In this document: piece after piece, positions 54,575-62,433 of the stretch
How positions within the stretch are numbered: position 1 is the first letter of the stretch
Layout of the letters: the number at the start of each line of letters is the position of its first letter
DNA from: SAR116 cluster bacterium AG-355-O21
Lineage (GTDB): Bacteria > Pseudomonadota > Alphaproteobacteria > Thalassobaculales > Thalassobaculaceae
Reading direction: 5' to 3'
DNA length: 64,000 nt
NCBI GenBank assembly: GCA_003280605.1
Contig: QCEM01000004.1
Location: 1 to 64,000, forward strand
Made by a program: the position numbers and the translations under genes
The notes under the pieces: model-generated
The model's input: only the letters and a program-made list of their open reading frames with translations
What the model was told of the DNA's origin: nothing
The model's database searches: none

Positions 54575-54724
54575 AGCCGGGGAAAAGAGTGTTTGCCGCA
54601 CGCAATCCCTGATGCATTGCCGATCTGCCTTAAAACACGCCGTTAAAATGCGGTTGGACGCTTTCCATTTGTGTTCCCTGCGGGCATGATGGCCATTGAA
54701 TTTCTGTCACATTGGAATGCAGCA

Positions 54725-56026
54725 ATGAAGATTGATTTTGCTTATGGACGCGGCCAGCTTGACGTTGCCATGCCTGAGGGAGCGGAGGTCCAGGTTATCC
54801 GCAAGACGCCACTGGAAAAAATAACCGATGGCAGGGCGGCGGTGCGGACGGCGCTAGATGCACCGATCGGCGCGCCGCCACTGCGGGAATTCGCTGCCGG
54901 CAAAAAAACCGCCTGTATTTTGATCTGTGATATTACCAGGCCGGTCCCGAACGGCCTTTTCCTGCGGCCGATGGTCGATGACCTGGAGGCGGCCGGCATT
55001 GCCCGCGAAAACATAACCATCCTGATCGCGACCGGGTTGCACCGCCCCAATGAGGGCGCAGAAATGCGTGAACTTGTGGGCGATGACTGGATTATGGATC
55101 ATATCCATGTCGTAAATCACTTTGCCCGCGATGATGACATGCATGTGAACCTTGGGGTGACGCCGACGCGGGCGACGCCGGTCAAGATTGATCGCCGTTT
55201 TGTGGACGCCGATGTCCGCATCGCCACCGGCTTGGTCGAGCCGCATTTCATGGCCGGGTATTCCGGTGGGCGTAAAGTTGTCGCCCCGGGCGTTGCCCAT
55301 CAAGACACCATTCGGACCTTCCATTCCGCCCGTTTCATGGAAGATCCACTGGCCATCTCGTGTAATCTTGACGGCAATCCGCTGCATGAGGAGCAATTGG
55401 AAATCCTCAAAATGCTCGGCGACGATATTCTCGGTTTGAATACGGTCATCGATGAGGAACGGGATCTGAATTTTGTCAGTTTTGGCAAAATTATCGACAG
55501 TCATATGGCGGCGGTTGATTTTGTGCGTGCATCGACGGAAATCGCGGTCGGTCGAAAATTCAAGACCGTGGTCACATCATCGGCAGGCTATCCCCTTGAT
55601 CAAACCTATTATCAAACCGTTAAAGGCATGGTGACGCCGATTGATATTCTGGCTCCTGGAGGCACTTTGATCGTTGTTTCCGATTGCTCGGAAGGAATCG
55701 GTTCAGAGGAGTTTCGGGCCTCTCAAGGGCGTTTGGTCGAGCTTGGTCCCGAGCGCTTCTTAGAAACCATTCTTGGCAAACAATTTGCCGATGTCGATGA
55801 ATGGCAAACCGAAATGCAGCTAAAGCCGATGCGCGTCGGCCATATCAAGCTTTTTGCCACAGGCTTGCCGGCAGAAGATTATCATTTGACCGGCGTTGAG
55901 GTGCTCGGCAATGCGCCTGAGGCGGTTGCGCAGGCGATCGCCGCCAGCATCGCGCAGCACGGTGATACGGCCGTTGCGGCCATTCCTGAAGGCCCCTATG
56001 TGATCCCCTTCAGTCGCGGAGCGTAA
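54725..56026 (+). CDS. larA: LarA-family nickel-pincer-dependent 2-hydroxyacid racemase/epimerase
   Basis: LarA racemises lactate by hydride transfer on a covalently bound nickel-pincer nucleotide (NPN), and homologues act on other 2-hydroxy acids. ATG 54725 (MKIDFAYGRGQLD) gives 433 residues; upstream in-frame starts add a non-conserved segment. All key residues are present. His106 in ATGLHRP fits catalytic His108 of the Lactobacillus enzyme. His174, Lys184 (which binds NPN) and His200 (a nickel ligand) lie in EPHFMAGYSGGRK and the following stretch at the same numbering as in Lactobacillus LarA. It is an active-looking member, but whether the substrate is lactate is not known. larC begins three bases after the stop and larE follows. 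Confidence 0.9.
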   Translation: MKIDFAYGRGQLDVAMPEGAEVQVIRKTPLEKITDGRAAVRTALDAPIGAPPLREFAAGKKTACILICDITRPVPNGLFLRPMVDDLEAAGIARENITILIATGLHRPNEGAEMRELVGDDWIMDHIHVVNHFARDDDMHVNLGVTPTRATPVKIDRRFVDADVRIATGLVEPHFMAGYSGGRKVVAPGVAHQDTIRTFHSARFMEDPLAISCNLDGNPLHEEQLEILKMLGDDILGLNTVIDEERDLNFVSFGKIIDSHMAAVDFVRASTEIAVGRKFKTVVTSSAGYPLDQTYYQTVKGMVTPIDILAPGGTLIVVSDCSEGIGSEEFRASQGRLVELGPERFLETILGKQFADVDEWQTEMQLKPMRVGHIKLFATGLPAEDYHLTGVEVLGNAPEAVAQAIAASIAQHGDTAVAAIPEGPYVIPFSRGA

Positions 56027-56029
56027 CCG

Positions 56030-57235
56030 GTGCCAAGACCGGCGCATATCCATTTACAGCCTTTGGGCGGAATTGCCGGCGACATGTTTATGTCGGCGAT
56101 GGTTGCAGGCTGGCCTGAATTGGCCGATCTGATTCGCCGGGAAGTCACGGCAGCCGGTGTGCCCGGTGCAGAAAAAATGGCTTTTGTGCCGGTTAAGCGG
56201 AAAGGCTTGGCAGCTCTCTGGTTAGATTTCGATACCCCTGCCGGTGACAGCAAAAAACCACCCCATCACTATCGTGACATTCGCCAAAATTTGCACCAAG
56301 CACCTTTAGCGGCGGAAACAAAAGAAGCAGCGCTGGCGATTTTAGCGCTGATTGCCGAGGCCGAGGCTGAAATTCACGGAATTGCCATTGATGCCGTGCA
56401 TTTCCATGAGGTTGCCGATTGGGATTCGCTTGCCGATGTGGTCGCCGCAGGGGCGATAGCAGGCTATTTTGCAGGCACCACATGGTCATCTGCCGCACTG
56501 CCCCTTGGCGGTGGCCAGGTCGATACCGCTCACGGTCGGCTGCCGGTCCCGGCACCGGCGACGCAGATTTTAATGACCGGTTTAGAGGTTTTTGACGACG
56601 GCATCTTGGGCGAGCGGGTGACGCCAACAGGGGCGGCAATTCTGAAATATCTGCTGTTACATCGCGGCGCCCCCTTGCGCGGCGGCATTGTTGACGCCTC
56701 CGGCTTCGGTGCCGGCAGCCGAGATATGCCGGCGATTGCCAATGTCCTAAGGGTTGCGGGTTATCGCCATGCAGCGCGCGGCCAGGTCGCATACGATCAG
56801 GTGGCGGTGATTGAATGCGACATTGATGATATGACCCCCGAAGAGCTGGCCGCCGCCGGTGATGCCTTGCGCGCTGTTAAGCAGGTTCTGGATGTGGCCG
56901 TATTCCAAGGTATCGGCAAAAAAGGACGGGCGCTTTTTCAGCTGCGGGCGCTGGTGCATCCGCAGGCCGGCGAGCAGGTTGCCGACTGGGTTTTGCGTAA
57001 CACCACGACCTTAGGGGTGCGTTTGCGTGTCGATCAGCGCCGCGTACTTGCCCGCGAGCTGGTGCGCACGCCCTCGGGCGTGCAGGTCAAGCTTACCGAC
57101 CGAGGGACGGGTCTGCTGACGGCCAAAGCCGAAGCAGACGATTTAGCCGCGTCGGTGTATCCGCGCCGGGCCCAAGCCCGACAGGCAGAGGATGACGCAC
57201 TTACCGGGAATGCCGAGTCTGCAGAAAATGACTGA
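56030..57235 (+). CDS. larC: Nickel-pincer cofactor biosynthesis protein LarC
   Basis: LarC is a CTP-dependent cyclometallase that inserts nickel into the pincer nucleotide to finish NPN. The 401-residue protein starts at GTG 56030. Typical segments are LQPLGGIAGDMFMSAM at the start, VHFHEVADWDSLADVVAAG, and in the C-terminal part ECDIDDMTPEELAAAGDAL. In Lactobacillus the gene is split in two by a programmed frameshift, but here it is one continuous frame. It overlaps larE by eight bases and is translationally linked to larA. Confidence 0.9.
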   Translation: MPRPAHIHLQPLGGIAGDMFMSAMVAGWPELADLIRREVTAAGVPGAEKMAFVPVKRKGLAALWLDFDTPAGDSKKPPHHYRDIRQNLHQAPLAAETKEAALAILALIAEAEAEIHGIAIDAVHFHEVADWDSLADVVAAGAIAGYFAGTTWSSAALPLGGGQVDTAHGRLPVPAPATQILMTGLEVFDDGILGERVTPTGAAILKYLLLHRGAPLRGGIVDASGFGAGSRDMPAIANVLRVAGYRHAARGQVAYDQVAVIECDIDDMTPEELAAAGDALRAVKQVLDVAVFQGIGKKGRALFQLRALVHPQAGEQVADWVLRNTTTLGVRLRVDQRRVLARELVRTPSGVQVKLTDRGTGLLTAKAEADDLAASVYPRRAQARQAEDDALTGNAESAEND

Positions 57236-58031
57236 TAAAGCGACACAATTAGGCGCTATCCTGGCCGCCGTAGGCCCGGCAGCGATTGCTGTCAGTGGAG
57301 GTGTCGACAGCATGACGTTGGCGCATCTTGCCCATCAGGTCTTAGGGCCGGCAGCGCTGATGCTGCATGCTGTTTCACCGGCGGTTCCGGCCGCAGCAAG
57401 CGCCAGGGTGCGCGCCCATGGCCGCGCTCATAGTTGGCAATTGCAGGTTATCGAAGCAGGTGAATTTGCTGATGAAGATTATTTAAAAAACCCTGTAAAT
57501 CGCTGTTATTTCTGCAAAAATAATCTTTACGATCGGATTTCACAGATTGCCGGCGAGCGGATTATCCTGTCCGGTGCAAACCTCGATGACCTGGGTGATT
57601 ACCGGCCAGGCTTAACAGCTGCCGATGAGCATCAGGTGCGCCATCCGTATATCGAAGCTGGCATCAGCAAGGCCGAATTGCGCGCCATTGCCCGTGCTTT
57701 AGGGCTTGATGATATTGCCGAGCTGCCGGCACAACCATGTCTGGCCAGCCGCGTTGAGACCGGCATTGCGATCAGCAGCGATGACCTTAACTTCATCGAA
57801 ATGGTGGAAGGCCAATTGCAGGCATTGCTTGGGCCGGTGACCTTGCGGTGTCGCATTACCAAATCAGGTGTGCGTGTTGAATTGGCTGCTGACGCCCGCA
57901 GGGTGGCAGCAATGGCCGAGGTCGCGGCACTTGTTGACGGGCTTTGCCGGGACGCCGGACGAATCTTTGGTGGGCTGCACGATTACCGTCGAGGCAGTGC
58001 CTTTATCCAGCCGCCGGCAGGCCAAGTTTAA
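57228..58031 (+). CDS. larE: ATP-dependent sulfur transferase LarE of nickel-pincer cofactor synthesis
   Basis: LarE adenylates the pincer precursor and donates sulfur to make its two thiocarboxylates. ATG 57228 overlaps larC and gives 267 residues. The PP-loop [11 protein letters not shown] (about residues 21-31) binds ATP. Three cysteines stand out: Cys93 and Cys96 in [10 protein letters not shown] and Cys171 in QPCLASR. The Lactobacillus enzyme sacrifices a single Cys, whereas three-Cys homologues such as that of Thermotoga are reported to hold a [4Fe-4S] cluster and could act catalytically. This one belongs to the three-Cys type. Its last 29 bases overlap the convergent BKACE gene. Confidence 0.9.
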
Positions 58032-60867: not shown

Positions 60868-62433
60868 ATGCAGGTTACAGAAATAGTTAATGACGGTTTA
60901 AAGCGCGAATTTCAGGTGGTTGTTGAAGCCAGTGAGATCGACGCCAAGGTTGATAATCGCTTGGCCGAATTGGCGCCAACAATGAATTTGCCGGGTTTTC
61001 GGCCCGGTAAGGTGCCACCGTCACTGCTTAAAAAGCGCTATGGCAAGGCCATGTTGGGCGAGATTTTAGAAAGCACCGTCAACGAAGCAACTCAAAGCAC
61101 GTTGGAAGAACGCGGACTGCGGGCTGCAACACAGCCGCATATTGAGGTGACCAGCTTCGATGAAGGTCAAAATCTAGAATACTCTATTAAACTGGAATTA
61201 ATGCCCGACATCACCCCGATGGATTTCTCATCGCTGGAGTTGGTGCGTCCAAAAGCGGAACCAAGCGACAAGGACATCGACGATGCTTTGACTCGCATGG
61301 CCGGTGAGCAAAAGCGCAGCGAGCCAATCAAAAAAGCCCGCAAGTCGAAGTCTGGCGATGTCATCGTTCTTGATTTCACCGGCTATATCGATGGCGAAGC
61401 CTTTGAAGGTGGCAGCGCCGAAGGTCAGCAACTTGAGCTCGGCTCAAACACCTTTATTCCTGGCTTTGAAGAGCAATTGATCGGCGTCAATGCGGACGAT
61501 GAGGTGAAAGTCGAGGTGACTTTCCCAGAAGATTATCCGCGTGCCGACTATGCCGGCAAAGCAGCCACATTTGAGACAAAAATCCATGAGATTCGCGAGC
61601 CTGTCGCGGTTGAAATCGATGATGAGTTTGCGAAAAATTTTGGCTTAGAAGATTTGGCCGGACTGCGCCAGGCAATCGGTCAACAGATCGGCCAAGAGTT
61701 CAGCAATGCATCACGCTTCAAGACCAAGCGCGTGTTGCTTGATAAACTTGCTGACGCCCATGAGTTTGAGTTGCCCGAAGGCATGCTGGAATCCGAATAT
61801 CAACAAATTTGTCGGCAGGCACGTCCGCAGCAAGAGCAGGGTGCGCAACAGCCTGATCATGACCACGATCATGACCATGGTCATGACCATGATCATGACC
61901 ACGATCATCAGCACAGCCAGCCGGCAGCCGATGAGGGCATGAGCGATGAAGATAAGGCCGAACATCGCTGTGTTGCCGAGCGCCGTGTGCGTTTGGGATT
62001 GCTGCTGGCTGAGGTTGGCCGGCTGAACAACATCCAAGTGGCGGATGAAGAGGTTCAGCGCGCCATCATGCAACAAGCGACTCGTTTCCCGGGTCAAGAA
62101 CGCCAGGTGGTCGAGTTTTATCAGACCAACCCAGAGGCGCGGGCCAGTGTTCAGGCGCCTTTGTTCGAGGATAAAGTCGTCGATTTCATTCTTGAAATGG
62201 CCAAAATCGAGGATGTGACGGTCGCCGCTGAAGATTTGTTCCGCGATGATGACGCGCCGGCTGAAGAGGCGGAAGACGCGAAATCGACCAAGGCCAAGCC
62301 GGCAGCGAAGAAGCCTGCGGCCAAGAAGCCGGCGGCCAAAAAGACAGGGGCAAAGAAGCCGGCAGTGAAAAAGCCAGCCGCTAAAAAATCAGCGGCGAAA
62401 TCAGCTGATGAAGCCGACGGTGATACTAAGTAA
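60868..62433 (+). CDS. tig: Trigger factor with His-rich insert and Lys/Ala-rich tail
   Basis: Trigger factor is the ribosome-bound chaperone that meets nascent chains. At 521 residues it is about 90 longer than the E. coli protein. The N-terminal ribosome-binding domain contains the signature GFRPGKVPPSLLKKRYG. The FKBP-type prolyl isomerase domain spans about 160-245 (SGDVIVLDFTGYIDGEAFEG). The helical C-terminal domain is interrupted at residues 331-349 by ten histidines alternating mostly with Asp. This falls between the two helices where E. coli has a short loop. A tail from about residue 472 repeats AAKKP units and ends in acidic residues. tig-clpP-clpX is the standard order. Confidence 0.95.
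   Translation: MQVTEIVNDGLKREFQVVVEASEIDAKVDNRLAELAPTMNLPGFRPGKVPPSLLKKRYGKAMLGEILESTVNEATQSTLEERGLRAATQPHIEVTSFDEGQNLEYSIKLELMPDITPMDFSSLELVRPKAEPSDKDIDDALTRMAGEQKRSEPIKKARKSKSGDVIVLDFTGYIDGEAFEGGSAEGQQLELGSNTFIPGFEEQLIGVNADDEVKVEVTFPEDYPRADYAGKAATFETKIHEIREPVAVEIDDEFAKNFGLEDLAGLRQAIGQQIGQEFSNASRFKTKRVLLDKLADAHEFELPEGMLESEYQQICRQARPQQEQGAQQPDHDHDHDHGHDHDHDHDHQHSQPAADEGMSDEDKAEHRCVAERRVRLGLLLAEVGRLNNIQVADEEVQRAIMQQATRFPGQERQVVEFYQTNPEARASVQAPLFEDKVVDFILEMAKIEDVTVAAEDLFRDDDAPAEEAEDAKSTKAKPAAKKPAAKKPAAKKTGAKKPAVKKPAAKKSAAKSADEADGDTK
61855..61908 (+). repeat. GAY-CAY codon repeat encoding the His/Asp-rich insert of trigger factor
   Basis: Alternating GAT/GAC and CAT/CAC codons, broken once by GGT, form an imperfect six-base tandem repeat with local palindromes. 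It is in frame and prone to length change. Confidence 0.8.
62284..62404 (+). repeat. Imperfect 15-base repeats encoding the AAKKP tail of trigger factor
   Basis: Seven degenerate units of the type Ala-Ala-Lys-Lys-Pro resemble histone H1-like bacterial tails. Codon variation between units shows that they are not a recent duplication. Confidence 0.7.

Follow-up and report, generated by a model that had tools for sequence, protein, structure and literature searches.

A histidine-aspartate tract at the arm-1 tip of trigger factor in a SAR116 cluster bacterium, a probable metal-binding loop recurring in Alphaproteobacteria

The tig gene and its histidine-aspartate tract

The window analysed in this work is a 64,000-nucleotide stretch of contig QCEM01000004.1 from SAR116 cluster bacterium AG-355-O21. 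The gene tig lies there in its usual order, with a tRNA gene before it and clpP and clpX after it. Its 521-aa reading frame scored 406.6 bits against the NCBIfam profile TIGR00115 (cut-off 180.2), and the Pfam domains Trigger_N, FKBP_C and Trigger_C followed each other as in the trigger factor family. The ribosome-binding signature GFRxGxxP was intact as GFRPGKVP at residues 43-50, and G43, F44, R45, G47 and P50 were invariant among 38 aligned sequences. The features are listed in Table 1.

Table 1. Features of the trigger factor gene, with positions in the window
Feature	Residues	Position	Strand	Basis
tig, trigger factor, 521 aa, stop codon included		60868..62433	+	TIGR00115 over cut-off; Pfam domains; AlphaFold model
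Trigger_N, ribosome-binding domain	1-144	60868..61299	+	Pfam
FKBP-type prolyl isomerase domain	157-238	61336..61581	+	Pfam FKBP_C
Arm 1 ascending helices	304-318 and 320-326	61777..61845	+	DSSP on model
His-Asp tract, arm-1 tip, predicted disordered	330-350	61855..61917	+	Sequence; pLDDT; Trigger_C split
Arm 1 descending helix	360-386	61945..62025	+	DSSP on model
Disordered C-terminal tail, KPAAKK repeats	468-521	62269..62430	+	pLDDT, tandem repeats, weak HC2 histone-like match

The tract reads DHDHDHDHGHDHDHDHDHQHS and contains 10 His, 8 Asp, 1 Gly and 1 Gln. Every second residue from 331 to 349 is a histidine, which confirms the ten-histidine insert of the original prediction, while the remaining 500 residues of the protein contain four. 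Given the His background of 2.0% in the window, the binomial probability of finding 10 His in 20 residues is about 2e-12, and the maximum was 4 His per 20 residues in every other window ORF of at least 200 aa. In the whole 2.58 Mb assembly, tig was the sole match to the HDHDHD DNA pattern, either exact or with one mismatch. On the DNA level the tract is an imperfect 12-bp array, in which CAT and CAC, as well as GAT and GAC codons, are mixed. A search for metal-responsive elements upstream of tig gave no riboswitch (Rfam) and no Zur-like palindrome, and this counts against a metal-related reading of the tract.

The AlphaFold model, for which 38 homologues were used as input, had a mean pLDDT of 85. 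Its closest matches in PDB were 2vrh and 1w26, both of them E. coli trigger factor. The rmsd was large, which is not surprising in a protein of several hinged domains, and the tract was therefore placed by its secondary structure context and by alignment of the sequences. In the model, arm 1 forms a hairpin of two helical segments, 304-326 and 360-386, with a coil at 327-359 between them where pLDDT is near 50 (51-55 for residues 321-350), and the Trigger_C profile match is divided in two by the tract. Residues 320 and 370 align to E. coli residues 320 and 341, respectively. The insert is thus located in the C-terminal chaperone domain at a loop of the E. coli protein, just as had been predicted, and the site corresponds to E. 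coli residues 321-340, with 49 residues occupying the place of about 20. As modelled, the tract forms the disordered arm-1 tip. The corresponding tip of the E. coli protein contains K327, a client cross-link hotspot that was linked to 7 of 9 client positions (PMC9287376), so the His loop would hang from a client-touching part of the chaperone.

The C-terminal tail had pLDDT below 50 at residues 468-510 and tandem repeats at window positions 62296-62387. A tail of the same KPAAKK type, rich in Lys, Ala and Pro, was also noticed on the DNA topoisomerase I encoded in this genome (L203, G000:C63), and such tails are frequent among the trigger factors of the family. We considered whether the protein could be a SlyD, in which the FKBP domain has an insert-in-flap chaperone domain and trigger factor N and C domains are missing, and rejected this, since both Trigger_N and Trigger_C are present and the best folds are those of E. 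coli trigger factor; the Lys/Ala/Pro-rich C-terminus is also different from the His/Cys-rich tail of SlyD.

Distribution of the tract and its pattern of substitution

The family was sampled with 36 genomes, which is also the whole order. A long His-Asp tract at the arm-1 tip was found in genera g1, g5, g6, g7, g8, g9 and g11, as well as in the large g10 genomes, with an interrupted His-rich version in G029 of g11. It was absent from g3 and g12, from the divergent g2 and from the two g10 genomes of 1.5 Mb, and no trigger factor match was obtained in G021, a genome of the same genus as ours that is 69% complete. In g3, g12 and G031 the tip carries instead N/E/Q-rich loops of similar length. The tig gene of G031 (g12; L026 / L201) was found to have an (Asp-Gln)n tract with regularly spaced ambiguous bases, which may reflect a change of His to Gln or a population of mixed sequences. 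The bulk of the loop can thus persist without His, and this counts against a metal reading. At a contig end of G025 (L235) the tig tract is a near-perfect GHDHDH repeat and the assembly breaks inside it. The number of His in the tract ranged from about 10 to more than 30, which together with the losses also speaks against metal binding. The absence from sister strains and the variable length, named in advance as signs against a function, were therefore observed in part: length does vary and some relatives have lost the tract, yet most genera have it, with its His conserved.

Outside the family, the arm-1 tip was a short acidic loop in most of 80 further alphaproteobacterial loci. Two pattern scans, in which matches in chance frames were removed after translation, gave His-X-His tips in at least 23 of 385 genomes of the class, a lower bound as the pattern requires HDH. 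They belong to families f1, f23, f35, f58, f83, f98, f109, f121, f135 and f158, about nine of which are other than the family of the window genome. In roughly 260 genomes outside Alphaproteobacteria, from a phylum sample of 398 and with some spacings not covered by the pattern, no true trigger factor match was found, and the match in G636 was rejected as a chance one. On a tree of 122 proteins, built with the tip left out, the long tract needs 11 changes, of which at least 6 are forced by well-supported branches. Judged from these sequences, the tract is gained or lost repeatedly across Alphaproteobacteria. Within its own family it looks ancestral, on an inferred polarity, and then lost in the g3 and g12 clade and in the reduced genomes. 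In two tig genes, that of Parvibaculum indicum (L082, GHNHDHDHDHDH) and that of a Sphingobium (L114, HVHGSDCGHDHHHD), the His-rich arm tip is replaced by a His-rich C-terminal tail, which makes this another place on trigger factor where a module of this kind is seen.

A different form of the tip was found in Rhodobacterales. All 33 sequences of this set, picked by tree clade (e.g., L084, L113, L120, and L133), have five invariant His in a tip that reads AHQLWHEENPxVxGHDHxxIxxTDEHxxLAERRV or near, with no repeat. This loop is predicted to be ordered, with AlphaFold pLDDT of 81-84. The model places the first two His at a helix end and the HxH in the loop, while the last His starts the next helix. 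G092, sister to Rhodobacterales on the tree, bears a long tract. Going by the model, the Rhodobacterales tip looks like a candidate defined metal site.

The substitutions inside the tracts are strongly one-sided. In 42 distinct tracts, 103 of 425 HxH triplets had a residue other than Asp in the middle, whereas none of 236 DxD triplets had a residue other than His; Asp was replaced by A, G, H, N, E, S, T, Q or K. A test that treats H and D alike counted 300 HD, 43 Hx and 0 xD (p 2e-13, a value that overstates certainty since tract copies and related genomes are not independent, although the direction is uniform). When one representative was taken per lineage, 15 of 15 had at least one replaced Asp and none had a replaced His within the tract; the few DxD exceptions in these representatives fall outside tracts. 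CAY and GAY codons are comparable mutational targets, so this bias is not predicted by drift or slippage alone. Selection acts on the His of the tract rather than on the Asp.

These counts bear on the simplest alternative, namely that the tract serves for solubility or as a spacer and has no metal function. It would then be a charged, unstructured arm-tip linker, made of a 6-bp repeat that expands by slippage. Several observations fit such a linker. At this very site the loop of most Alphaproteobacteria is short and acidic, the N/E/Q-rich loops of g3, g12 and G031 keep a similar length, tract length varies, and the tract DNA of G013 is an almost pure CATGAC repeat. However, His and Asp codons of a slippage product or charged spacer should decay alike, and they do not: within tracts His is never replaced, while Asp is. 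Most tracts also mix synonymous codons, which means that the majority of copies did not arise by recent slippage. Besides, the five invariant His of Rhodobacterales stand there without any repeat, and other occurrences of the motif in these genomes are in metal proteins, as described below. We find a mere linker improbable.

Other proteins with the motif and the nickel context

The genomes of the family were scanned for HDHDHxH, and many of the matches listed were sites outside tig. Among a sample of 27 such non-tig frames from the matches listed, 26 read as UreE, the cobaltochelatase CbiX, CobW GTPases, the ATPase ZnuC of a zinc transporter or nitrile hydratase alpha subunit, and the remaining one (L208) is overlong and of doubtful coding value. 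Six further motif sites from the trigger factor search were in nitrile hydratase, CobW and UreE. Identities were assigned for eight representatives by Pfam and for four by NCBIfam, with the best matches of ZnuC and CobW below curated cut-offs. The nitrile hydratase alpha subunits here have the VCTLCSC motif, which we take to be that of the cobalt type. Among the matches listed, trigger factor was the sole non-metal protein and the sole general chaperone with the motif.

Some of these proteins had His-rich segments of their own. The N-termini of nitrile hydratase alpha subunits in the family are rich in His and Asp (L195, L200, L206, L213, L215, L218, L221, L227, and L228) and are perhaps built-in segments for cobalt loading. 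CbiX cobaltochelatases were found with very long His-rich C-terminal regions (L209, L214, L216, L219, L223, L224, L230, and L232). UreE proteins of the family carry His-rich C-terminal tails (G027 and other g10 genomes; L225, L226, and L233), and so does UreE of the window genome, which lacks the perfect HDHDHD repeat.

Genes for LarA-like, LarC and LarE proteins, related to the nickel-pincer cofactor, were noticed consecutively at window positions 54671-58031, 3-6 kb upstream of tig. The LarA-like protein does not reach the curated cut-off of any LarA subfamily, and no LarB was noticed adjoining. We considered the linkage of Lar to tig as a nickel context and rejected it, since the distribution of Lar does not follow the tract: Lar is found in 11 of 36 family genomes, in none of five near-complete g9 genomes with the long tract, and in the tractless g2. 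The adjacency was taken as a coincidence.

The original prediction pointed to the nickel delivery of SlyD and suggested that trigger factor may likewise bind nickel, zinc or copper. On the nickel reading, the tract would make it a metallochaperone dedicated to this metal, much as SlyD serves hydrogenase, with the loop loading Ni into urease or some other nickel enzyme. The genome under study encodes urease and the His-tailed UreE in addition to the Lar genes upstream of tig, and urease is enriched in tract bearers across the class. It was found in 16 of 23 tract bearers versus 97 of 362 other genomes among 385 Alphaproteobacteria, and in genomes of at least 2.4 Mb in 16 of 20 versus 96 of 190 (p 0.017), kinship being ignored in both comparisons. 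The post of such a chaperone might also be vacant, since a search with E. coli SlyD, run without a positive control, found no relative in the 36 family genomes. Against this stand G010, a 100% complete tract bearer with neither urease nor Lar, and the tract-bearing g9 genomes without Lar, as well as the tractless g2 with both Lar and urease and some tractless g3 genomes with urease. The motif is moreover shared with proteins of Co and Zn. The enrichment of urease fits a general metal link and not a nickel-only task, and we consider a dedicated role in nickel delivery unlikely, to about the same degree as the linker. In the original prediction, the metal-binding part is thus the one that stands, whereas the SlyD-like delivery of nickel is weak, as neither Lar nor urease follows the tract within the family.

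Metal binding, possible roles, and comparison with known systems

That the His-Asp loop binds metal ions is, in our opinion, well supported by inference from four lines. The His are kept while the Asp vary, tracts appear repeatedly at a single site of the structure, the same motif in the same genomes sits in Co, Ni and Zn proteins, and near-identical peptides are measured ligands of Zn or Cu (PMC9374683, PMC10170517). The peptide DLHDHDH bound Zn 1:1 with KD of about 6 uM (PMC9374683), and DHDHHHGHAH of GroEL1 binds Cu(II) and tolerates single His-to-Gln changes (PMC10170517). Furthermore, loss of trigger factor makes E. coli sensitive to copper (PMC9040851), so metal stress and trigger factor already meet. 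By analogy, the chemistry of the motif points to Zn, Cu, Ni or Co.

Trigger factor is an abundant chaperone. Our preferred reading, which we hold to be somewhat better than an even bet, is that a disordered His-X-His repeat was gained at the arm-1 tip and serves as a general buffer for divalent metals. A normal ribosome-associated trigger factor would have acquired the repeat at the tip of arm 1 of the chaperone cradle, where its imidazoles may bind several ions of divalent transition metals (Zn, Ni, Co or Cu), the Asp residues assisting them and acting as spacers. The loop would then be a general cytosolic buffer, or a safe parking place for labile metal, next to unfolded clients. Metal buffered in this way would be kept off exposed Cys and His of nascent chains and could pass to metalloproteins during their folding, the loop not being a delivery factor for one particular enzyme. 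We put moderate confidence in the buffering role, while delivery to nascent metalloproteins is speculative. A bolder version has trigger factor of many Alphaproteobacteria as a ribosome-tethered metallochaperone, whose arm tip would meter Zn, Ni or Co to folding metalloproteins or withhold it against mismetallation, and whose tip Rhodobacterales would have refined into a fixed five-His site; this we regard as doubtful, though a little less so than the linker or the dedicated nickel role. Least probable of all is a chaperone gated by metal or pH, in which a metal ion or proton at the arm tip would switch client binding, ribosome release or dimerisation: the arm-1 tip does contact clients (PMC9287376), nickel binding lowers the isomerase activity of E. 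coli SlyD (PMC7840056) and the Rhodobacterales tip resembles a defined site, but a disordered tract of variable length would make a poor precise switch.

The tract would bear on the question of how metals are routed to the right proteins during folding, and most bacterial proteins encounter trigger factor before any other chaperone. The tract deserves attention as it is recurrent, under selection and placed where nascent proteins are touched. With general buffering as the favoured role, a His-rich, guarded and repeatedly evolved loop at a client-contacting tip would allow co-translational buffering or delivery of metal to be tested directly, and the five-His tip of Rhodobacterales is a compact, structure-ready candidate site in cultivable marine bacteria. 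We found no description of a His-rich trigger factor in the open-licence literature, where His-rich SlyD, GroES (HspA) and GroEL1 are described.

In its domain order, ribosome-binding signature and fold the protein is an ordinary trigger factor like that of E. coli (1w26), from which it differs at the arm tip, with about 20 residues there and 49 with 10 His here. It resembles SlyD in that both are FKBP-type isomerase chaperones with a His-rich segment, metal-binding in SlyD. The tail of E. coli SlyD, with 13 His and 6 Cys, binds up to seven Ni (PMC7840056). That tail is however C-terminal and rich in His and Cys, whereas we observe an internal, Cys-free His-Asp loop of arm 1 (residues 330-350) in a protein with trigger factor N and C domains, predicted to be ribosome-associated, and saw no tie to a nickel enzyme. 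UreE, CbiX, CobW, ZnuC and the Co-type nitrile hydratase alpha subunits have the same motif in genomes of the same family, but they are dedicated metal proteins. The mycobacterial motifs of GroEL1 (DHDHHHGHAH) and PacL1 (DLHDHDH), for which Cu(II) and Zn binding was measured, are near-identical to the tract (PMC10170517, PMC9374683), although these are short C-terminal tails of unrelated proteins in Actinobacteria. Chaperones can gain His-rich metal segments, as seen in H. pylori HspA and E. coli SlyD (PMC7840056, PMC11198818) and in mycobacterial GroEL1. HspA, a GroES, is like our protein a housekeeping folding chaperone with a lineage-specific His-rich extension, and it sequesters metal (PMC7840056); it is nevertheless another chaperone, its His/Cys extension is C-terminal and contains Cys, and its nickel role has been demonstrated. 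A lineage-specific His-rich segment on a folding chaperone, the trait common to HspA, GroEL1 and SlyD, is present here as well, and trigger factor would by this join the short list of general chaperones with acquired metal-binding segments (GroES, GroEL1, and SlyD).
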